64,000 nt of DNA from Planctomycetia bacterium (GTDB lineage: Bacteria > Planctomycetota > Planctomycetia > Pirellulales > UBA1268): positions 62,001 through 126,000 of the forward strand of contig BJHK01000004.1 of NCBI GenBank assembly GCA_014192425.1, written 5' to 3'. The notes beneath the pieces were generated by a model. The model made no database searches. It had not been told where the DNA came from and saw nothing but the letters and a program-made list of their open reading frames with translations. The stretch's first letter is position 1, and every line of letters starts with the position of its first letter. Below are positions 19,205-28,036 of the stretch, in pieces. The position numbers and the translations under genes are program-made.

Positions 19205-20989
19205 GTGCCGAAGCGCTGGCATATCAGTCCCCACGACCGTGCGGCGGTCGCGGCCCTGGAGCGGTCGGCCGGGATACCGGGCGTCGTAGCCAGCCTGCTC
19301 GTCGCCCGTGGCGTCACCGACGCGGCCACCGCCCGCACCTTCCTCGGCGGCACGATGTCCGACCTGCGCGACCCCGAGCTGCTCCCCGGCGTGCCCGCCG
19401 CAGCCGAGCGGATCCTCGCCGCCGCGCGGGCGGGGCGGAAGATCGTCGTCTACGGCGACTACGACGCCGACGGCATGTGCGCCACGGCGATTCTCATGGG
19501 CTGCCTCGAGGCGATCGACGCCAAGGCGAGCTGGTACGTGCCCGACCGTGTGGAGGAGGGATACGGGCTCAACGTCCAGGCCCTCGATTCTCTGGCCGCC
19601 GACGGTGCGAGCCTGGTGGTCACCGTCGACTGCGGCATCGCCAGCGTGGCCGAGGCGGCCCGGGCCCGCGAACTGGGCCTGGAGCTGATCGTCACCGATC
19701 ACCACTCCTTCGCCGACACGCTCCCCGCGGCTGACGTGCTCGTCCATCCGCGGCTCCCGGGGGCGGGCTACCCGTTCGGCGAATTGTGCGGTGCCGGCGT
19801 GGCCTTCAAGCTCGCCTGGGCGATCGCCACGCGGGCCAGCGGCGCCCGGCAGGTGACGCCGCGGCTGCGGGCGATGCTCCTCCGCGGCATGGGCCTGGCG
19901 GCGCTGGGCACCGTCGCCGACGTCGTGCCGCTCCTCGACGAGAACCGAATCTACGTCAAGCACGGCCTGGAGTGCCTGCGGCAGCGCGGCGGCGCCGGCA
20001 TCACACGGCTCATCGAGCTCGCCGGTCTCCACGAGAAATCTTCGCTCGAGAGCGAGGACGTGGCCTTCCGGCTGGCACCGCGGCTCAACGCGGCCGGCCG
20101 GCTCGGCCAGGCGGCCTGCGGCATCGAACTGTTGACGACGGCCGACGAGGCCCGGGCCGTGAGCCTCGCCGACTACCTCCACGAGCTCAACGCCCAGCGC
20201 GAGACCGAGGAGCGGAGCATCCAGCTGGCGGCGACGAAGCAGGCCAAGGAGCAGTTCGATCCGCTGGCCGATCCGGCGCTCGTCCTCGCCGACCGCGGCT
20301 GGCATGCCGGCGTGATCGGCATCGTCGCTGGCCGGCTCGCCGACCGCTGGCACCGGCCGGTGGTGATGATCGCCCAGGACATGCATCAGGGACGGCCGGC
20401 GATCGGCAGCCTCCGCAGCGTGCCAGGATTCGACGTCCACGCGCCGCTCATGGCCTGTCGCGGGCTGCTCGTCAGCTGCGGGGGTCACGCCGCGGCCGCC
20501 GGCCTGCGGATCGACGACGCCAACATCGACGCCTTCCGGGCGGCGTTCTGCGCCGCGGTCGACGAGCGGCTGCCGGCGACGCTCCGCCGTGCCCAGATCA
20601 CGATCGAGGGGGAGACGACGCTCGCCGGCCTGACGCTCGACACGGTCAACCAGCTCGAGCGGCTGGCGCCGTTCGGGCAGGGCAACCGCCGGCCGATCCT
20701 CTGCGCCTCGAGCGTCCGGCTCGCCGAGGCCCCGCGGGCGATCGGTGCCGGCGGCAAGCACCTGGCGATGCAGTTCGTCCAGCACGGCGCGAAGATCCGC
20801 GGCGTCGCCTTCGGCGCCGCCGAGTGGCTCCCCCATCTCCCCGCGCCGGGCCAGCCGTTCCACGTCGCCTTCAAGCCCAAGATCAACGAGTTCAAGGGGC
20901 GACGGACCGCCGAGATGGAGGTCATCGACTGGCGTCCGGAGGGGATCGACGTCGCCGCCGACCTGCCGGAACTGGTCGCGGCGTCGTAG
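19205..20989 (+). CDS. recJ: Single-stranded-DNA-specific exonuclease RecJ
   Basis: 5'-3' ssDNA exonuclease of the DHH phosphoesterase superfamily, acting in recombination and mismatch repair. At 594 residues it has motif I VVYGDYDADGM (80-91), VDCGIA, DHH in VTDHHSF (165-167), and DHHA1 signature CGGHAAAAG (about 430), then the OB-fold C-terminal domain. The start is GTG 19205, preceded by GGAAGGGAA. Longer upstream reading in this frame overlaps the divergent YkgJ gene and is excluded. A TATACT at 19148-19153 could be its -10. Confidence 0.95.
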   Translation: MPKRWHISPHDRAAVAALERSAGIPGVVASLLVARGVTDAATARTFLGGTMSDLRDPELLPGVPAAAERILAAARAGRKIVVYGDYDADGMCATAILMGCLEAIDAKASWYVPDRVEEGYGLNVQALDSLAADGASLVVTVDCGIASVAEAARARELGLELIVTDHHSFADTLPAADVLVHPRLPGAGYPFGELCGAGVAFKLAWAIATRASGARQVTPRLRAMLLRGMGLAALGTVADVVPLLDENRIYVKHGLECLRQRGGAGITRLIELAGLHEKSSLESEDVAFRLAPRLNAAGRLGQAACGIELLTTADEARAVSLADYLHELNAQRETEERSIQLAATKQAKEQFDPLADPALVLADRGWHAGVIGIVAGRLADRWHRPVVMIAQDMHQGRPAIGSLRSVPGFDVHAPLMACRGLLVSCGGHAAAAGLRIDDANIDAFRAAFCAAVDERLPATLRRAQITIEGETTLAGLTLDTVNQLERLAPFGQGNRRPILCASSVRLAEAPRAIGAGGKHLAMQFVQHGAKIRGVAFGAAEWLPHLPAPGQPFHVAFKPKINEFKGRRTAEMEVIDWRPEGIDVAADLPELVAAS

Positions 20990-21042
20990 CATTCAACGTC
21001 CGGCGCGTCCCATCCCTCTGCGTTACCCCGAGGAGTCAGCCC

Positions 21043-22416
21043 GTGTCCGAAGCCAATCTTTCGACCGCGACCCGCGGCTGGCGGCTGACGATCACGGCCT
21101 GCCTGCTCGCCGCCCTGCCCGTGGCCTGCCGTGGCGACGACTGGCCACAGTGGCGCGGGCCGCGCCGCGACGGCGTCTGGCGGGAGCGCGGCATCGTGGC
21201 GACGATCCCGGCGGCGGGGCTGCCGGTGAAGTGGCGGACCGCGGTCGGCGGGGGCTACGGCGGCCCGGCCGTCGCCGGCGGCCGCGTCTACCTGCTCGAC
21301 TACGTGCGGCGCGAGGGGACGGTGGCCAACGCCCCCAACGAGCGGACCGCGCTCGCCGGCAACGAGCGCGTCCTGTGCTTCGACGCTGCCAACGGCCAGC
21401 TTGTCTGGAAGCACGAGTACGACTGCCCGTATTCGATCTCCTACGCGTCGGGTCCGCGCTGCACGCCGACGGTCGCCGACGGCCGCGTCTATGCGCTCGG
21501 CGCCGAGGGACGGCTCTGCTGCCTCGACGCGAACGACGGCACGGTCGTCTGGGAAAAGGACCTGAACCGCGACTATGGGGCGCCGGTGCCGCTGTGGGGC
21601 TTCTGCGGCCATCCGCTGGTCGAGGGAGACGCTCTGGTCTGCCTCGTCGGCGGCCCGGGCAGCGTGGCGGTGGCGTTCGACCGGCGCACGGGCCGCGAAC
21701 TCTGGAAGGCGCTGACGGCCAGCGAGTCGGGCTACTGCCCGCCGACGATGATCGAGGCGGCGGGTGTCCGGCAGCTGCTGATCTGGGATGCCGACAAGCT
21801 CAACAGCCTCGACCCGCGAACCGGGTCCGTCCACTGGTCGCAGCCGCTCAAGCCGATGTACGGGATGTCGATCATGGCCCCGCAGGTTGCCGACGGTCCG
21901 GACGGCAAGGTGCTGTTCGCAAGCGGCATCGGCCGGGTCGGCGCCCTCTTCAAGCTTGCGGCCGACAAGCCCGGCGCCGCGGTCCTGTGGCGCGGCGAGC
22001 CGAAGTCGGCGGTGTACTGTGCCAACAGCACGCCGTTCATCGCGGGCGACACGCTCTACGGCTGCGACTGCGACACCGGCATGCTCACGGCGGTTGACCT
22101 GTCGACGGGCCGGCGGCTCTGGGAGACGGCGGCCCCGACGACGGGCAACAGGCGCGGCAAACATGGCACGGCGTTCCTCGTCCGCGAGGAGTCGGCGGCG
22201 GGGCCGGTGCGGGTCTGGCTGTTCTCCGAGACGGGCGACCTGGTCCTCGCCCGGCTGTCGGCGGAGAAGTACGAGGAGATCGGGCGGACGCACCTCGTCG
22301 AGCCTACGAACGAGTGCTTCGGCCGCGAGGTGGTGTGGAGTCATCCGGCCTTCGCAGGCGGCTGCATCGTCGTCCGCAACGACAGGGAACTGGTCTGCGT
22401 GCGGGCGGCCGAGTGA
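21043..22416 (+). CDS. Exported PQQ-type beta-propeller protein
   Basis: A 457-residue protein with a signal sequence (LTITACLLAALPVACRG) and PQQ-like beta-propeller blades: DDWPQWRGPRRDGVW, LDYVRREGTV, CFDAANGQLVWKHEY, CLDANDGTVVWEKDL, FDRRTGRELWKAL, LDPRTGSVHWSQPL, VDLSTGRRLWETA. Such outer-membrane or periplasmic propellers are abundant in planctomycetes and are often scaffolds, not dehydrogenases; no quinone-binding residues are claimed. The GTG at 21043 is chosen because GAGGAG lies 7 nt upstream. It follows recJ by 53 bp. Confidence 0.85.
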   Translation: MSEANLSTATRGWRLTITACLLAALPVACRGDDWPQWRGPRRDGVWRERGIVATIPAAGLPVKWRTAVGGGYGGPAVAGGRVYLLDYVRREGTVANAPNERTALAGNERVLCFDAANGQLVWKHEYDCPYSISYASGPRCTPTVADGRVYALGAEGRLCCLDANDGTVVWEKDLNRDYGAPVPLWGFCGHPLVEGDALVCLVGGPGSVAVAFDRRTGRELWKALTASESGYCPPTMIEAAGVRQLLIWDADKLNSLDPRTGSVHWSQPLKPMYGMSIMAPQVADGPDGKVLFASGIGRVGALFKLAADKPGAAVLWRGEPKSAVYCANSTPFIAGDTLYGCDCDTGMLTAVDLSTGRRLWETAAPTTGNRRGKHGTAFLVREESAAGPVRVWLFSETGDLVLARLSAEKYEEIGRTHLVEPTNECFGREVVWSHPAFAGGCIVVRNDRELVCVRAAE

Positions 22417-22490
22417 CGGCCGCTGGCGGCCGGTGCGGCCGGTGCGGCCGACGCACGGGGCCGGCAGAACCCGAAAAAACGAAAGCGGCG

Positions 22491-22519
22491 TTGTCCCGCG
22501 GCCGGCCTGCGGGTACCCT
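22491..22519 (+). promoter_or_regulatory. Candidate promoter of tRNA-Pro
   Basis: TTGTCC (22491-22496), a 17-nt spacer and TACCCT (22514-22519), about 50 bp upstream of the tRNA. The -10 is a moderate match. The CCGGC-TTCG-GCCGG hairpin just upstream of the tRNA could act in processing. Confidence 0.35.
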
Positions 22520-22570
22520 TAGAAGCCTGTTCCCTGCGGGGTCCGGCTTCGGCCGGGATGCCACGCGAAT

Positions 22571-22645
22571 CGGGGCGTAGCTCAGCCTGGCTAGAGCGCT
22601 ACGTTCGGGACGTAGAGGTCGCATGTTCGAATCATGTCGCCCCGA
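22571..22645 (+). tRNA. tRNA-Pro (anticodon CGG)
   Basis: 75-nt cloverleaf: acceptor stem CGGGGCG (22571-22577) pairs with CGCCCCG (22638-22644), with discriminator A. The anticodon stem CTACG/CGTAG holds loop TTCGGGA, giving anticodon CGG (22606-22608), so Pro for CCG codons. The T arm is GCATG-TTCGAAT-CATGT. CCA is not encoded. The debris of an integrase and of an IS91 element begins about 140 bp downstream, consistent with use of this tRNA as an integration site. Confidence 0.93.
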
Positions 22646-22684
22646 CTCGGTTGGAATGGTCTGAAAGCTGGCTCAGCTCGCTAC

Positions 22685-22701
22685 CTGCCGACGGTCGGCA
22701 G
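22685..22701 (+). terminator. Palindrome after tRNA-Pro (possible terminator or element end)
   Basis: CTGCCGAC-G-GTCGGCAG, 8-bp perfect arms, 40 bp after the tRNA. No U tract follows. A second perfect inverted repeat, AAACGGTGA-A-TCACCGTTT, lies at 22736-22754, just before the integrase remnant, with an extra CACCGTTT copy next to it. Either could be an operator or element end. Confidence 0.35.
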
Positions 22702-22784
22702 TGCCTTCGGGAAGCACCGATATTCGGTGAACGGTAAACGGTGAATCACCGTTTCACCGTTTCTGCTTCAAGGAGGTATCTGTC

Positions 22785-22972
22785 ATGGCTCGTCGCCCCA
22801 AGCCTCTCCACCCCCATCCCCCCTGCACGCAGACTCCGGGCACGCTCGGGTTCGAATCGCCGGCGAGGAGTTCTGGCTCGGTCACTACGGCAGTCCGCAG
22901 GCTTGCGTGGCAGGACCGGGCAATCTTTCAGGCGTCACCGGACGAGCTGCCCGTGATCGATATCCACATCCT
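22785..22972 (+). pseudogene. Chimeric debris: integrase N-terminus remnant joined to IS91 transposase C-terminus
   Basis: A strong AAGGAGGT lies 8 nt before ATG 22785, which opens MARRPKPLHPHPP, the typical start of planctomycete tyrosine integrases. After the poly-C run the family sequence continues in another frame (LHADSGHARVRIAGEEFWLGHYGSP, about 22825-22903), so it is frameshifted. From about 22911 the frame reads RAIFQASPDELPVIDIHIL, which I recognise as the extreme C-terminus of an IS91-family transposase. So a broken integrase start is joined to an IS91 end. Neither is functional. Confidence 0.65.
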
Positions 22973-22980
22973 GTGCCGGG

Positions 22981-23031
22981 ATCCCATGTCACGATGCGGA
23001 GAGACAGCGAGAAGAGCGGTTTCAAGGCCGG
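22981..23031 (+). mobile_element. IS91-family 3' end sequence, + orientation
   Basis: Contains CCATG-CACG-TGCGGA and the block GCGAGAAGAGCGGTTT followed by AAGGCCGG. The same pattern occurs in inverted orientation at 25180-25229, each time just beyond IS91 transposase C-terminal coding sequence. This marks it as the conserved downstream end of one element family. Confidence 0.6.
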
Positions 23032-23111
23032 CCTGCGCCGACACGGCAAATCCGGCCTTGAGCGTGGATAGGAAACTCCTTGGCAGCCCCAAGCGGGTGC
23101 CACATCCAGCC

Positions 23112-23711
23112 CTAACTGTCGAGTCCCATCCGCAAGGATCCCCGTGGCGAACCAAAGGCCGTTTCGATCTGGGCGAGCACCGCTTGCTCGGCGGGTGAGA
23201 CCCTCTTGCCGAAGCCGAGGAGGCCGCCGCTGACGCGGGCGACCTCACCGGCACGGTCTAGTATCTCGCGGCGCAAGGCCTCCAAGTCCTCGGCGGCCAT
23301 CCTTTCGCTCAAATGCTTGATATAGTCCCGCCAAGCCGCGAACATTTCGGGCGCGGGCCGGCGCTTCAGCCAATGCTCAAGGACCGGATAACGGCCGTTC
23401 TGCTGCCCGATGCCGGCGGCCTGGGCCATGGCCACGATTCGATCCCGTTCCTTGGCGGCCACCTCGCCGTCGGCCCAGGCAACCCAGACCAGCGGCACCA
23501 GCCCTAAAGCCGCAAGACTTTCCGCCGTGATCCCCAACCCTAGGAATCGATCCAGGATCGCTTCGTCGCGGATGCCCGAGACATGCGCAAGCTGCTGGCG
23601 GCGTTCACACTGATCGAGACGCTCGCGAAAAGCCTCGACGAGGTGCTTCTCGCGATTGTGAAATACGGCATCGATCAGAATACTCTGTTGGCTGCGAGAA
23701 GGGGTGGGCAT
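23112..23711 (-). CDS. TerB-like domain protein, uncharacterised
   Basis: A 199-residue soluble protein. The segment VPLVWVAWADGEVAAKERDRIVAMAQAAGI resembles the tellurite-resistance TerB fold (acidic metal-binding helix motif AWADGEV..ER). Flanks are helical and charged. ATG 23711 has a strong AAAGGAG RBS 6 nt upstream, so it is probably expressed. No other ter genes are nearby. It lies between two inverted IS91 ends, so it may have arrived with them. Confidence 0.6.
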   Translation of the reverse strand: MPTPSRSQQSILIDAVFHNREKHLVEAFRERLDQCERRQQLAHVSGIRDEAILDRFLGLGITAESLAALGLVPLVWVAWADGEVAAKERDRIVAMAQAAGIGQQNGRYPVLEHWLKRRPAPEMFAAWRDYIKHLSERMAAEDLEALRREILDRAGEVARVSGGLLGFGKRVSPAEQAVLAQIETAFGSPRGSLRMGLDS

Positions 23712-24138
23712 CGATTGCTCCTTTCAACGTACGGGGGCGTGCGGTCGTCGCGACAAGCGACAGACACCAGCCCCGGATTGCGGCCACCCACGGGCGGTTG
23801 GCACGGCTTGGGGCATCGTCGTGACTCGGCAACTGCATCGGCATTTTCCCAATCCGGAATCGCGACTCTCACCGAGCGGCCGGTGACGTGGCTCCGGATA
23901 CTGACGTCCGGTATGCCTGGATTCGTCGATCCCGAAGTCGCCCGATGTGGTCGGGAAGGGTCGCGGGATACGGCGTGCCCTGGTCCCTGAGAAGCCACTC
24001 CATTGATCGCCCTCCTGTGGGTTCGTTGTTCATGGTGGACGCTTCTATTCTTCGCCGCCCGCCATGAAAAAAACCCTCGATACTTTCTGGCCAACACATC
24101 GGAAATTCCTATGATTGGTCAGCCGTCGGGAGCACGCC
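23712..24138. other. Intergenic region with one small ORF and a LysR-type control region
   Basis: Apart from the 44-codon ORF at 23869-24003 no gene is supported. The 135 bp between that ORF and the divergent LysR-type gene would hold both promoters. It includes a palindrome-like ATCGGAAATTCCTATGAT at about 24098-24115, which has the size and dyad expected of a LysR-type site, but this is speculative. Confidence 0.5.
23869..24003 (-). CDS. Small ORF with strong RBS, unknown (possibly a truncated gene)
   Basis: A 44-codon frame, MEWLLRDQGTPYPATLPDHIG..., with GGAGGG 6 nt before ATG 24003. It is divergent from the LysR-type regulator and upstream of the TerB-like gene on the same strand. LysR regulators usually control the divergent gene, so this could be the remnant of the ancestral target or a genuine small protein. 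I do not recognise it. Confidence 0.35.
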   Translation of the reverse strand: MEWLLRDQGTPYPATLPDHIGRLRDRRIQAYRTSVSGATSPAAR

Positions 24139-25041
24139 ATGCACTGGCTCAACTACCACCACCTTCTCTATTTCTGGATGGCCGCGCGGGAGGGCAGCAT
24201 CTCGCGGGCCTGTCGCGCCCTGCATCTCACGCAGCCGACGGTGAGCGGCCAGATTCGCGAGCTCGAGCGGGCCCTTAAGACCAAGCTCTTCGAGCGGTCC
24301 GGCAGGTCGATCGCGCTCACCGACACGGGCCGGCTGGTCTATCGCTACGCCGACGAGATCTTCGCTCTGGGCCGTGACTTGCAGGATGCGCTGCACGACC
24401 GCCCACGCGGCCAGCCGTTGCGCTTCGCCGTGGGCGTGGCGGACACGCTGCCCAAGGTTCTCGTTCATCGCCTGCTCGCGCCGGCCTCGACGCTCCGCGA
24501 GGAGGTGCGGATCACGTGCATCGACGGACAGCCCGATCGCCTCTTGGCCGAGTTGGCGCTGCACGAATTAGATCTCGTCATCAGCGACTATCCGGCGCAG
24601 CCACGGCCCGGACTGAAGCTCTTCAATCACATGCTCGGCGAATGCGGGGTTAGTTTCTGTGCCACGCCGGCGCTCGCCAGACGACATCGGCGTGGATTCC
24701 CCCGCTCATTGTCCGGAGCGCCATTCCTGCTGCCGTATGGCAACACGGTGCTGCGCCGGTCGCTCGACCAGTGGTTCGACGACAACGGCATTCATCCCAC
24801 GGTCCGCGCCGAATTCGCCGACAGCGGGCTGTTGAAGGCGTTCGGCGCCTCCGGCGACGGCCTTTTCGCCGTGCCCACCGCGGTGGAGGCCGATGTGATC
24901 CGCGCCTACGGCGTGCGCGTGATTGGCCGAGAGAAGTCGATTCGGGAACGTTACTACGCGATCTCGGTGGAAAAACGGATCAAGCACCCGGCGGTCGTGG
25001 CGATCACGAGGGCCGCCAGGGGGATCCTGTCGGCGGAGTGA
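24139..25041 (+). CDS. LysR-family transcriptional regulator, NhaR-like
   Basis: A 300-residue LysR-type regulator. The N-terminus MHWLNYHHLLYFWMAAREGSI plus LTQPTVSGQIRELE is the winged HTH, with the NYHHLLYFW start typical of NhaR, the Na+-responsive activator of nhaA. The C-terminal effector-binding domain begins near PLRFAVGVADTLPK. ATG 24139 has GGGAG 6-7 nt upstream; a TTG at 24115 is less likely. No antiporter gene is nearby, so the regulon is unknown. It is bracketed by inverted IS91 ends. Confidence 0.85.
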   Translation: MHWLNYHHLLYFWMAAREGSISRACRALHLTQPTVSGQIRELERALKTKLFERSGRSIALTDTGRLVYRYADEIFALGRDLQDALHDRPRGQPLRFAVGVADTLPKVLVHRLLAPASTLREEVRITCIDGQPDRLLAELALHELDLVISDYPAQPRPGLKLFNHMLGECGVSFCATPALARRHRRGFPRSLSGAPFLLPYGNTVLRRSLDQWFDDNGIHPTVRAEFADSGLLKAFGASGDGLFAVPTAVEADVIRAYGVRVIGREKSIRERYYAISVEKRIKHPAVVAITRAARGILSAE

Positions 25042-25049
25042 CGCGGCAT

Positions 25050-25180
25050 TCAGGGGGCGCGTTGTCGCCGGCCGGTCAGGACGCGGAAGATTTCGCCGAT
25101 CGAGTGCCCGGACTCCAGCGAACGCCGCAAGAGCTGAGAAGAGTCCACCGCGTAGGTGCTGTTCTTCTCGATATACGTTC
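25050..25180 (-). pseudogene. C-terminal fragment of an unidentified gene
   Basis: On the minus strand, following the IS91 end, the frame reads GTYIEKNSTYAVDSSQLLRR, then SIGEIFRVLTGRRQRAP and a stop at 25050. It has normal protein-like composition but no start of its own, so it looks like the tail of a gene cut by the IS91 insertion. Product unknown. Confidence 0.35.
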
Positions 25181-25229
25181 CGGCCTTAAACCGCTCTTCT
25201 CGCGGGCCGTCCGCACCGTGGCATGGAAT
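25180..25229 (-). mobile_element. IS91-family 3' end sequence, - orientation
   Basis: Reverse complement carries ATGCCACGGTGCGGA and GCGAGAAGAGCGGTTTAAGG, matching 22981-23031 with a few substitutions and one indel. It follows the IS91 transposase remnant encoded to its right on the minus strand. Confidence 0.6.
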
Positions 25230-25851
25230 GCCGACAGAGGCAGTGGATGTCGCCACCACACCCCGGGCACTCCAGCGGAAAATCCTCGTCCACCCGCGCC
25301 AGCAGTTTCGCCCAGGCTTTTGCCTGACGTGTCGTGGGAGCGGGGTTTGTGATTGGCGTCGCCGCAGCCTTCCGCGACGCGTCCGCCGACTGCATGCCCG
25401 CCGGTCGCGTCCTCGCCGCGCTTGCCAATGTTCCCTTTTTCGCCAGCGATGTGACGGCTTTCCGCAGCCGGTGATTCGGGGCAAACACCCCGTGGCAGCG
25501 GTGCCGGTGTTTTCGCGGCGGCGGCACAAGGTCCGCCACACGATCAATGAACTCACACGGCGACAGCTCGACCATGTTGTCGTCGTTCGGATCCCTGCAT
25601 TCCCGCAGTCGGGTCGTCACGACCACTTCTTCGGCATCGCGAATGGATGCGGCAAGAAACTCCAATCGCTGCTCCTCGCTCACATACCGGGCGACCTTCG
25701 GCCGTCGCAGCCCATCGTCCAGTTCCTCGAGCGTCGCTTCGGAAACCAGCAACTGACCTCGTTCCCGCGCCCGTTCAAACGCTCGCCTGGGCGGCGAGCC
25801 GGAGAGCATGAGCGGGCTGACGACGACATTCGTGTCGAATACGAATCGCAC
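25186..25851 (-). pseudogene. PIN-domain gene truncated and fused in frame to an IS91 transposase remnant
   Basis: From GTG 25851 the first ~93 residues are a PIN-family toxin: VRFVFDTNVVVSPLMLSG, then LVSEATLEELDDGLRR and TTRLRECRDPNDD. The expected continuation after RDPNDDN (the third acidic site and C-terminal helix) is replaced from about 25572 by IS91 transposase sequence: FIDRVADLVPPPRKHRHRCH, GVFAPNHRLR, then AWAKLLARVDEDFPLECPGC and GGDI. The frame stays open to 25186. Upstream, separated from the GTG by one base, a frame ends GLPSESLTAILDER*, which looks like the tail of the cognate antitoxin. The PIN nuclease is probably inactive. Confidence 0.65.
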
Positions 25852-25931
25852 GTCACCGCTCGTCGAGAATCGCCGTGAGCGACTCGGACGGCAGGCCTTT
25901 CTCCGCCGCCGAACGCCCCACCTCGTCCTTT

Positions 25932-25957
25932 CCCAGATTTGGTGGCTGGCACCTTTT
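25932..25957. repeat. Solo copy of the RAYT element end
   Basis: 26 bp beginning CCCAGATTTGGTGGCTGG and continuing CACCTTTT, identical to the core of the 31-bp inverted repeats that flank the RAYT gene at 47797-48605. No transposase and no inverted partner are nearby. It lies between the broken PIN module and the intact Phd/PIN module. Confidence 0.8.
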
Positions 25958-25969
25958 TCCGCCCGTGCC

Positions 25970-25998
25970 TTGCCGCTCGTACACTGGTCATGTACACT
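25970..25998 (+). promoter_or_regulatory. Candidate promoter of the Phd/PIN operon
   Basis: TTGCCG (25970-25975), a 17-nt spacer and TACACT (25993-25998). Transcription would start near 26005, the A of the antitoxin ATG, giving a leaderless mRNA; no RBS is seen before that ATG. The -10 lies inside the second tandem repeat, so binding there would repress. Confidence 0.45.
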
Positions 25999-26004
25999 GG
26001 TCAT
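25979..26004 (+). repeat. 13-bp tandem direct repeat abutting the antitoxin start: likely autoregulatory operator
   Basis: GTACACTGGTCAT occurs twice head to tail (25979-25991 and 25992-26004), ending exactly at the ATG. Phd/YefM antitoxins repress their own operon by binding repeated sites at the promoter, so this is the expected operator position. The role is inferred. Confidence 0.6.
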
Positions 26005-26229
26005 ATGAAAATCTCCGCTTCTGAATTCAAGGCCCGTTGCCTGCGTCTCCTCGACCAGGTCAGTCGCACGGGCGAGGAACTGGTCATTCTCAAGCGCGGG
26101 CGGCCTGTTGCCCGCGTGGTGCCGGCCCGCGAGGACAAGCCCTGGCTGGCGCTTCGCGGCCGAGGGGCGTTCGTCGGCGATCCATTCGCGCCCGTGATCG
26201 CCGCGGCGGAGATCGAAGCCCTGCGATGA
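26005..26229 (+). CDS. Type II antitoxin, Phd/YefM family
   Basis: A 74-residue antitoxin that neutralises the adjacent PIN nuclease and should repress the operon. The N-terminal DNA-binding fold reads MKISASEFKARCLRLLDQVSRTGEELVILKRGRPVARVVP, the Phd/YefM signature; the C-terminal tail (about residues 50-74) would wrap the toxin. It overlaps the toxin start by 4 bp (ATGA), giving translational coupling. An in-frame open region extends 22 codons upstream but only through the operator repeats, so it is excluded. Confidence 0.88.
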   Translation: MKISASEFKARCLRLLDQVSRTGEELVILKRGRPVARVVPAREDKPWLALRGRGAFVGDPFAPVIAAAEIEALR

Positions 26230-26630
26230 CCAGGCCGCTCCTCGACACCCACGTCTGGGTCTGGTGGATGCTCGGCGATCCGCGGCTCCCGGACCGGGAA
26301 CGCGACCAACTCGACAGGCTGCCCGCCGCTCGCCGTCCCCTGCTCTGCGATATCAGCCTCTGGGAAGTCTCGCTGCTCGTGCAGTTCGGCCGGCTCGAAC
26401 TCGCCGATGATCTGGAGTCCTGGCTGGGGATCGCCGCGTCTCCCGCCACGGTCGAGGTTCAGCCGATCACGTCCGCGGCAGTCGTGACGATGACGAAACT
26501 GCCCAGGAGTTTTCACCAGGACCCGGCCGACCGCCTGATCGTGGCGACGGCCCGGGCACTCGATGTCCCGCTCGCCACGCACGATTCGCTCATCCGCCGG
26601 TCGCGGCTCGTGCCGCTCTGGACCGCCTGA
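26226..26630 (+). CDS. Type II toxin, PIN-domain ribonuclease (VapC-like)
   Basis: A 134-residue PIN-domain RNase, the toxin of the preceding antitoxin. Acidic residues are in the expected places: LLDTHVWVWW (Asp), DISLWEVSLL (Glu), and DPADRLIVATARALDVPLATHD (Asp pair), so the nuclease should be active. It overlaps the antitoxin by 4 bp. This PIN subgroup pairs with Phd antitoxins and typically cleaves tRNA or rRNA; the exact target is unknown. Confidence 0.88.
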   Translation: MTRPLLDTHVWVWWMLGDPRLPDRERDQLDRLPAARRPLLCDISLWEVSLLVQFGRLELADDLESWLGIAASPATVEVQPITSAAVVTMTKLPRSFHQDPADRLIVATARALDVPLATHDSLIRRSRLVPLWTA

Positions 26631-27015
26631 GCCGGCCGGGAACTTTTGGGGACCGTTGCGGAAGTGCCATTGACCGGGCTATCCCGCCCACCCGCGGCCC
26701 GTGCGGCCGCGGCAGCCTCGTCGCGGTTCGCGAAATCGTAGGCCCGCAAGACCGTGCCGCGGCTGCCGTTCATCTCCCGGGCCAGCCGGTCGAAACCCTC
26801 GTTCGCCCAGCCGCAGCGACTCGAACGTGTTGCGGTTCATGCGGATACCCTCGAGAAGATGCTGGCCCACGACGGGCCGACGGGATATCGGCAGACCAGC
26901 CGCCGGAACGGTGCCGGGTCCGCTTCCGGTTCAGTTCGGAACGTACGCTCGATATGATGGCCACGAGACCCATTCCGGCATGCAATCATGCCGCAGACCA
27001 CCGAGGAACCCGCCG
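26631..27015. other. Intergenic region with a possible HTH gene remnant (minus strand)
   Basis: No intact gene. On the minus strand around 26690-26815 a frame reads GWANEGFDRLAREMNGSRGT followed by VLRAYDFANRDEAAAAA, which resembles the last helix-turn-helix of a recombinase or regulator, but it runs out into unrelated sequence. I treat it as a possible remnant. Confidence 0.35.
26930..26958 (+). promoter_or_regulatory. Candidate promoter of the DUF3088 gene
   Basis: TTCAGT (26930-26935), 17-nt spacer, TATGAT (26953-26958), 57 bp upstream of the ATG. The -10 matches consensus at five of six positions. Confidence 0.35.
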
Positions 27016-27363
27016 ATGACCGCGACCGCCAAGCCGATCCTGTTTCTCCTTCGCGCCGGATTCCCCGATGCCACGCGGGGCCCGGGCGGGTTCTTCTGCC
27101 CCGAGTGCGCGACCATCGCCGGGCTTCTCTACTACTATCCGCAGTTGACGGAGGCACTCGACGTCAGGCAGGTCGATGCCCCGCGGCCCCGCCCCGACGT
27201 CGTGGCGCTCGTCGGCGCCGAGAACCAGTCCTGCCCGGTGCTGGTCCTGCCGCCGGGCGACCTCCCCGCCGGCGTCCCGCTGGCCAACGGCCGGGCCTTC
27301 GTCTCGGGCCCCACGGCGATCGTGGCCTTCCTCGCCGACCGCTACGGCACGGCCCGCGGCTGA
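27016..27363 (+). CDS. DUF3088 family protein
   Basis: A 115-residue soluble protein of the DUF3088 family, thioredoxin-like by size and by the motif GGFFCPECATIAGLLYYYP. Other conserved stretches are RPDVVALVGAENQSCPVLVLP and FVSGPTAIVAFLADRYG. No reaction is established for the family; redox or glutathione-transferase-like roles are speculation. ATG 27016 has GAGGA about 8 nt upstream. It stands alone between the toxin-antitoxin module and the recC operon. Confidence 0.85.
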   Translation: MTATAKPILFLLRAGFPDATRGPGGFFCPECATIAGLLYYYPQLTEALDVRQVDAPRPRPDVVALVGAENQSCPVLVLPPGDLPAGVPLANGRAFVSGPTAIVAFLADRYGTARG

Positions 27364-27610
27364 CGCGGCCGCCTCGCCCTCGGTGCCAGGCACCGGGCCC
27401 GACGGCGTCTGCCGCCGTGTATGACACGAACCATCTGGCGGCCTGTCGCGTATACTCGTGCAAGCATCCGTCTCGAATCGGGCACCCCACGCGGGTGTCC
27501 GTGCCAACCTGCCCGTAAAGGTGGCGTCGGTGGTCCGGCAACGGCCCCGAGGATGTGCGCTGGAAGCGGTTTCCGGCGAAACGCGAACCCCTGAATTCAG
27601 GAGCCTGCAC

Positions 27611-27934
27611 ATGACCCTCGGCCACCTCTCCCCCCGAACCCCCGACGCCGGTGATCGGCACCACCTCTGGAACAACAACGGCACCTGGTGGGTGCACTAC
27701 ACCCTGCACTTCGGCCATCGCAAGCGCCGCATCCGCCGGTCGCTCAAGACGCGGTCGCTCGCGGAGGCGATTTGTAGCCGTGACGAGCTCTTCGCCCGCA
27801 TCGCCCGCGACGGCGAGTGGGTCGCGGACCGCGGCGATGACATGCGGCGCATGCTGTTCCTCGGCCCGGATCACCTGGCCGGCACCGATCCCGCGACTGC
27901 GCGGCCGCGCAGCGTCGGTGCGGCGGCGGCGTAG
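27611..27934 (+). CDS. Small hypothetical protein, integrase arm-domain-like
   Basis: A 107-residue protein, MTLGHLSPRTPDAGDRHHLW, then NGTWWVHYTLHFGHRKRRIRRSLKTRSLAEAICSRDELF. The aromatic beta strands followed by a basic TRSLAEA helix resemble the arm-binding N-terminal domain of tyrosine recombinases, without a catalytic domain. It may be a stand-alone DNA-binding protein or the stub of an integrase. ATG 27611 has no strong RBS. It lies about 100 bp upstream of recC. Confidence 0.5.
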   Translation: MTLGHLSPRTPDAGDRHHLWNNNGTWWVHYTLHFGHRKRRIRRSLKTRSLAEAICSRDELFARIARDGEWVADRGDDMRRMLFLGPDHLAGTDPATARPRSVGAAAA

Positions 27935-27965
27935 ACAGCGTTCTCGGGTGCCGTTGCCCCGATGG

Positions 27966-27995
27966 TTGGCCCGTCCGACCGGGTTGTTCCATACT
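27966..27995 (+). promoter_or_regulatory. Candidate promoter of the recCBD operon
   Basis: TTGGCC (27966-27971), 18-nt spacer, CATACT (27990-27995), 41 bp upstream of the recC ATG. Moderate match; no LexA-like palindrome is visible here. Confidence 0.3.
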
Positions 27996-28036
27996 GCTCC
28001 TCGCCCCCCGACCGGGGTGGCAGCCGAGGAACCGAC

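Follow-up and report, generated by a model that had tools for sequence, protein, structure and literature searches.

Translational riboswitches and similar leaders form two mutually exclusive pairings, one of which hides the Shine-Dalgarno sequence. Pairs of a tRNA and an integrase gene on the same strand account for 736 of 1273 cases in the part of a survey drawn on here (PMC2951348), according to which those tested are autorepressed, the integrase acting on its own gene at attL. Islands of the anticodon type (type A) are catalogued in Islander, where the 3' part of the tRNA is duplicated, a tyrosine integrase lies beside the regenerated tRNA and tandem arrays occur (PMC4383910). The planctomycete family described here resembles these islands in all three respects and adds a structured leader between tRNA and integrase. 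It also resembles the KplE1 intS/STI pairs, as far as their account in PMC2951348 goes, in that the tRNA precedes a same-strand integrase and control of the integrase would lie in attL; there, however, control is exerted by protein on DNA at the promoter, whereas for the planctomycete leader the evidence favors base pairing of RNA where the ribosome binds. With translational riboswitches the leader shares predicted exclusive pairings, the Shine-Dalgarno sequence being hidden in one of them, but it has no assigned ligand or trigger and no match in Rfam 15. The published candidate Rhodopirellula-1, likened to our leader by its table description only, shares the listing of planctomycetes and a cis-regulatory mark (PMC2864571).

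We analyzed a 64,000-nucleotide stretch of planctomycete DNA (the window) containing a tRNA-Pro(CGG) gene, the start of an integrase gene and a transposon fragment. The locus is likely the integrase end of a lost or decayed tRNA-targeting element, with a leader that would switch integrase translation. We read the family as tRNA-integrated elements in which an RNA switch probably gates the integrase; in the literature covered, mostly as titles and abstract openings, we found no description of a structured RNA between a tRNA and an integrase.

The tRNA-Pro(CGG) site and its dead integrase gene

The site comprises the following features, with a related fragment further downstream.

22571..22646, + strand: intact tRNA-Pro(CGG), the host attachment gene (ARAGORN; Rfam tRNA 61.8 bits)
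22601..22648, + strand: putative attachment core, from the tRNA anticodon loop to the CT after the tRNA (by analogy with the repeats of relatives)
22770..22777, + strand: Shine-Dalgarno sequence AAGGAGGT (from the sequence)
22785..22910, + strand: integrase N-terminal remnant with a MARRPKP start, a frameshift and then GHARVRIAGEEFWLGHYGSPQA in another frame (profile A1)
22914..23112, + strand: IS91-type (Y2_Tnp) 3'-region fragment lacking both of its ends and its stop codon (repeats in its own genome)
25180..25252, - strand: second IS91-type fragment in opposite orientation, joined in frame to the end of a PIN-domain frame (25186-26004)

Translated from the ATG at 22785, the integrase remnant reads MARRPKPLHPHPPC and soon loses similarity. 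Another frame reads GSSPQASPPPSPLHADSGHARVRIAGEEFWLGHYGSPQA, also carries HARVRIAGEEFWLGHYGSPQA, and matches an integrase N-terminal profile (A1, an alignment of 13 integrase N-termini of relatives from which the window was left out) at 22790-22903 with 52 bits and an E value of 2.2e-13. Because it is the non-ATG frame that matches A1, the stub reads as a frameshifted, true integrase N-terminus with its break near the start. The original prediction had already described the tRNA, the strong AAGGAGGT, the MARRPKP start and the early frameshift, and ARAGORN, Rfam, the sequence itself and profile A1 bear it out on these points; it overlooked what matters most here, the leader that separates the tRNA from the start codon. 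After about codon 40 the remnant gives way to a dispersed repeat, and the stub is an N-terminal piece only, without the tyrosine integrase domain (PF00589). Leader, Shine-Dalgarno sequence and ATG are intact although the integrase is dead, which would reflect either recent decay or another use of the leader.

The repeat that follows (22914 to about 23112) has 40 matches in its own genome, that of the window included. Longer copies extend from a reading frame ending in SPDELPVIDIHSL and a stop codon, or from near it; the longest of four such frames scanned contains Y2_Tnp (PF04986), and the three shorter ones have no Pfam match. Similarity of the window fragment ends about 60 bp short of the end common to the other copies. 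The segment matches the 3' region of IS91-type elements, of which one scanned frame contains Y2_Tnp, but the window holds a fragment only, cut at both ends. The integrase tail had been assigned to the last residues of an IS91 transposase: a Y2_Tnp-type fragment is indeed present, but with both ends cut and the stop codon lost. A history of serial insertion and decay, also proposed at the outset, fits the evidence, in an order of events that we infer. Elsewhere in the window, the PIN_3 domain frame (25186-26004, - strand) runs into its Y2_Tnp piece; this IS91-type fragment and the one at 22914-23112 are in facing orientation, with a DUF533-like frame and a LysR-type gene between them. Two genomes of the same genus (loci L056 in G013 and L058 in G020) likewise have IS91-type tail pieces downstream of tRNA-Pro(CGG), and in L075 (G091) such a tail, read by eye, lies between tRNA-Met and an integrase remnant.

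We searched 60 related genomes with the tRNA, obtained matches in 53 and kept 30 loci, including that of the window. In 13 of the 29 other loci the same PQQ-type gene lies upstream, and these are therefore orthologous sites; the downstream side differs. One genome of the same genus (G001, upstream PQQ-type gene 72% identical to that of the window) has an uninterrupted 404-codon integrase frame (L050) that starts 182 nt behind the orthologous tRNA-Pro(CGG) and stays open until the contig stops. PF00589 scores 19.7 bits in this frame, below the curated cut-off, the C-terminus being lost to the contig end. Other integrases of the same type lie at tRNA-Pro genes with CGG, GGG and TGG anticodons. 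In G014 a leader match occurs 17 nt after the tRNA, and a pattern search of the flank found no integrase, a weak negative given that the same search also missed the G001 integrase. Of the 30 loci, 10 have a contig end less than 1.5 kb downstream of the tRNA and 2 have one equally close upstream (Fisher p 0.02), as expected for a variable insertion site.

The original prediction that the tRNA serves as an integration site is supported by these integrases at tRNA-Pro in relatives. It had named two signs to look for. An intact integrase of the same type at tRNA-Pro in relatives was found (G001; CGG, GGG and TGG), so the case in which both signs are missing does not arise. A copy of the tRNA 3' end serving as attR was not: an own-genome search (E <= 10) returned no tRNA-derived repeat downstream on the contig of the window, and the tRNA 3' half shares no exact 12-base word with the downstream part of the window. 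The missing attR is consistent with a remnant.

The integrase family and its attachment sites

Searching 146 genomes of the order with a 25-residue piece of the remnant, we found the family in 17, its own included, although two of these places (L078 and L080) are unrelated to the A1 profile. With profile A1 the counts are 25 of 72 genomes for the family and 33 of 57 for the order, the genome of the window being counted each time. Among 70 unique N-terminus loci outside the window, taken as the best-scoring subsets of these searches, a whole tRNA of the same strand precedes 55, in 54 cases at a distance of 100-240 nt, and these tRNAs are of 17 kinds. In the window the integrase N-terminus is likewise on the strand of the tRNA, with a spacing as in 54 of the 70 relatives. 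PF00589 is found in complete relatives with 55 (L077), 61 (L073), 50.5 (L149) and 39 bits (L069). The L077 integrase, the one searched by tblastn, has no match in the phage and plasmid collections.

In G115 the 3' part of tRNA-Val (46 bp) recurs 41.4 kb downstream, and genes for RND metal efflux and for an ABC-3C component lie on the island so delimited. In G049 a 43-bp piece of tRNA-Asn recurs 15.1 kb downstream, ahead of a second leader and integrase; genes for an integrase, a D5-type primase and a phage portal protein are present on this element. About ten other loci have no more of the tRNA than a 3' half, starting at position 28-35, ahead of leader and integrase. Because the repeats in G115 and G049 and the tRNA 3' halves all start there, we place the crossover of the family in or near the tRNA anticodon loop. 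The attachment core of the window (22601..22648) would follow by analogy with the tRNA repeats of relatives, at positions 31-76 and 32-74, and with the fragments starting at 28-35. The inverted repeat before the Shine-Dalgarno sequence was considered as a crossover site and rejected, because the attachment repeats and the tRNA 3' halves point to the anticodon loop instead. The intact elements in G111 and G159 show no tRNA repeat within 80 kb, and seven intact elements searched over their first 3-20 kb gave no 12-base tRNA repeat; one was found when the search of three was extended to 80 kb.

Several arrangements stand apart. In the genome of the window, a 29-nt copy of the tRNA-Pro(GGG) 3' end lies about 615 bp downstream of that tRNA (L012, C19:50491-51210), delimiting a very small insert, and three integrases are convergent to tRNA-Met(CAT), tRNA-Arg(CCG) and tRNA-Val(CAC) (L006, L007 and L008), where neither R1 nor R2 (see below) matches a leader. 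In L146 (G002:C143) and L147 (G017:C49) the tRNA-Val(CAC) ahead of leader and integrase stops after its first 39 nt; its 3' half is neither restored at the site nor seen in the stretch examined. In L294 (G041:C1) tRNA-Pro(TGG) has a leader and integrase, and an inverted second tRNA 3' half with an integrase follows 11.8 kb on. In five loci (L072, L084, L164, L211 and L282) the leader is preceded by about the last ten bases of tRNA-Pro only; the upstream stretches of L164, L211 and L282 look similar to one another by eye.

Structure and distribution of the leader

The leader of the window contains the following elements.

22647..22784, + strand: integrase leader, from tRNA to start codon, 138 nt (RNA fold; R1 match)
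22680..22715, + strand: junction closed by helix P1, 22680-22682 with 22713-22715 (sequence; covariation in set A7; R2 match)
22685-22691 with 22695-22701, + strand: helix P3 inside the junction (sequence; A7 covariation)
22704-22711, + strand: P4, a CC-UUCG-GG hairpin inside the junction (sequence; A7 covariation)
22701..22716, + strand: shared strand, the 5' side of helix PX, overlapping P4 and the 3' side of P1 (duplex energy)
22730..22762, + strand: second inverted repeat AAACGGTG-AAT-CACCGTTT with outer arms, enclosed by PX (fold)
22764..22779, + strand: 3' side of PX, containing the Shine-Dalgarno core GGAGG at 22772-22776 (duplex; minimum free energy fold)

The leader folds with -61.4 kcal/mol (z -5.15), a value as good being reached by 0 of 200 shuffled sequences. 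Structure search R1, trained without the window, matches 22664-22704 with 23.3 bits (E 0.007), its sole match in the genome; R2, whose training included the window copy, matches 22673-22723. In the window, Rfam 15 recognizes only the tRNA (20000-28000) and nothing above gathering score in 22640-22800; in 18 related loci (E <= 1) or three (E <= 5) it returned tRNAs and chance matches below threshold.

When the stretches between tRNA and integrase are aligned, they show the same order of parts: after the tRNA come CT, a junction that holds hairpin P3 (CTGCCGAC-GGTCGGCAG), GTGCGGC, and a 3' part made of the second inverted repeat, the Shine-Dalgarno sequence, a CGCAC-like string and the start codon. 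RNAalifold by itself recovered P3 only (set A3); the wider structure was drawn by eye and afterwards tested. P1, P2 and P3 covary order-wide, the score being 0.383 compared with 0.159 after shuffling (reached by 0 of 500) and with 0.04-0.10 when the partners are slid, in a kinship-blind test of 31 leaders of which two (L164 and L176) are misplaced by coordinates. For the junction, covariation is 0.213 against 0.087, again kinship-blind, on 78 CM-aligned leaders, 64 of which come from an exact P3-centred pattern and four of which are identical to rows in an earlier CM alignment (A4). The variant in the family of the window consists of P1, P3 and the small CC-UUCG-GG hairpin and covaries with 0.309 against 0.116 in set A7, which holds 12 of 23 drawn leaders, the rest being omitted for differing hairpin lengths; two further measures on A7 are weak (33/500 and 85/500). 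Two other pairings were tried and discarded. A pseudoknot of TAAGT with the P2 loop had little support from A3, where 14 of 500 shuffles do as well, and none from A6 (393/500), and pairing of the tRNA acceptor strand with the leader in an excised circle was dropped by eye, P3 being nearly constant across different tRNAs.

An exact 25-base pattern, ACCTGCCGAYGKTCGGCAGYGCRGC, searched over 84,980 species, occurs in 64 genome stretches, all with planctomycete titles (Kuenenia, a planctomycete, included) except two titled only 'bacterium'; viral contigs have no match to a 22-base form of the pattern. A whole same-strand tRNA lies 25-58 nt upstream at 49 of the 64 (at exactly 35 nt in 27 of these 49), and an integrase N-terminus 53-104 nt downstream at 55, leaving 15 without a whole tRNA and 9 without an integrase. 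In 60 genomes, R1, which had been trained partly on loci that it then found, located 50 places, 41 with a whole tRNA, 6 with a tRNA piece and 3 with neither; 42 have the integrase. At L213, L215 and L222 a leader-like structure follows directly after tRNA-Pro(CGG), tRNA-Pro(GGG) and tRNA-Leu(GAG), respectively, with no recognizable integrase, and we regard these as solo scars.

Competing pairings and proposed control of the integrase

After P3 the leaders carry a strand that reads GUGCGGC in most of the order and GUGCCUUCGGGAA in the family of the window. In minimum free energy folds of single leaders, GUGCGGC tends to pair with the CGCAC-like string rather than with its P1 partner, so that the Shine-Dalgarno sequence is enclosed or paired. 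The corresponding helix PX of the window (22701-22708 with 22772-22779 and 22711-22716 with 22764-22769) has a duplex energy of -20.4 kcal/mol, which 1 of 1000 shuffles reaches. P1 and PX are, on their predicted pairing, mutually exclusive, with one strand in common.

PX was tested by pairing the 18 nt after P3 with the 26 nt that precede the start codon, for the 113 loci where both can be placed, a set that excludes the window because of its broken frame. Order-wide, own partners pair with a mean of -17.5 kcal/mol and exchanged partners with -13.4 (n=92; 0 of 1000 permutations; kinship-blind); in the family of the window exchanged partners reach -15.3 (n=21), and 0 of 1000 permutations were as good as the own pairs. 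Reversed or complemented controls gave z values from -2.4 to +2.2. With one representative per 75% cluster the order-wide result holds (0/2000, n=30), and that in the family is not significant (125/2000, nine representatives). In all 105 loci with a Shine-Dalgarno-like string PX covers the string or lies beyond it, by a generous criterion. Where one base of the shared strand is A instead of G, its P1 partner is T in 13 of 13 leaders (4 of 67 otherwise) and its PX partner T in 12 of 13 (18 of 62 otherwise), both counts being kinship-blind.

Of 113 loci, 91 pair more strongly on the sense than on the antisense strand and 21 less strongly, as expected because G.U pairs are tolerated in RNA. The antisense strand also prefers its own partner over foreign ones (z -11.0 order-wide), as complementarity demands, and therefore only the size of the sense-antisense difference argues for RNA. 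This better sense-strand pairing points to a leader that acts as RNA. Counts of G.U versus A.C favor RNA for P3 (20 versus 1) and lend no support for P1 (9 versus 10) and P2 (22 versus 24); those in best-fit hairpins and in the 7-bp PX core are biased by the fitting score and were excluded from the argument.

From these pairings we infer a translational switch controlling the integrase. The window site would be the attL side of a planctomycete element, of a family seen in relatives, that has since been lost or has decayed. Its tyrosine integrase would cross over in the anticodon loop, the element bringing a new tRNA 3' half, and the integrase gene would follow the regenerated tRNA on the same strand after about 100-150 nt, as in relatives. 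The integrase message may come from read-through of the tRNA, because in the window the gene lies directly behind a same-strand tRNA, with no terminator-like site between them. When the shared strand pairs with its upstream partner (P1) the junction would be closed, presumably the on state; when it pairs with the Shine-Dalgarno region (PX) the site would be hidden, presumably the off state. Some signal, or the order of folding, would set the choice.

Alternatively, the conserved segments could be arm-type sites for integrase or accessory factors, lying in attL over an integrase-repressed promoter as in KplE1 intS. We consider this unlikely, although same-strand integrases preceded by a tRNA are common and the E. 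coli type that was tested is autorepressed through attL in the part of the study used here (PMC2951348), the second inverted repeat is an almost perfect DNA palindrome in many loci, and the G.U and A.C counts of P1 and P2 are neutral. Double-stranded sites predict neither the covariation of nested helices nor one strand covarying with two partners, nor would they account for the excess of sense pairing; no sigma-70-like promoter was found in 22400-22800, but planctomycete promoters may be of another type.

A second alternative concerns novelty rather than mechanism: the leader might be a published RNA candidate under another name, for example Rhodopirellula-1, whose table entry lists Proteobacteria and Planctomycetes, a cis-regulatory role and no Rfam accession (PMC2864571). 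That identity appears a little less probable still, given that the main text of the paper, as distinct from its other parts, links integrases to STAXI only (PMC2864571) and that every one of the exact-pattern records is titled planctomycete or just 'bacterium'.

The leader could also sense the integration state, so that integrase translation would report whether the element is integrated or excised, a variant of the switch to which we give rather low credence. The chromosomal message would follow a whole tRNA, which is cut away to give a leader with a defined 5' end; the message of the excised circle would follow the tRNA 3' half only, and the two contexts would tip the shared strand to different partners.

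Quite improbable is an ordinary decayed integrase start whose leader resembles others through common ancestry alone. The integrase is broken, an IS91-type fragment lies next to it and our tests are blind to kinship, but compensatory changes and the preference for own over foreign partners exceed shuffled, slid and reversed controls, order-wide also after de-replication. Least probable of all is a trailer that serves the tRNA, aiding its 3' processing or insulating it after its native downstream sequence was replaced: the leader does start within about 3-20 nt of the tRNA at most loci and some loci, such as L213 and L222, keep it without a recognizable integrase, but the most constrained partner sits at the integrase Shine-Dalgarno site and the integrase N-terminus is kept at 42 of the 50 places found by structure.

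The translational switch thus remains our preferred reading. Mobile elements need little integrase while integrated and much of it to leave, and the control described for same-strand tRNA-integrase pairs, in the part of the survey cited, is protein on DNA (PMC2951348). The short leader pattern allows such insertions, dead ones included, to be found in draft planctomycete genomes. If our reading is correct, a leader with competing folds at many tRNA genes across the phylum would add an RNA layer to the control of integrases.
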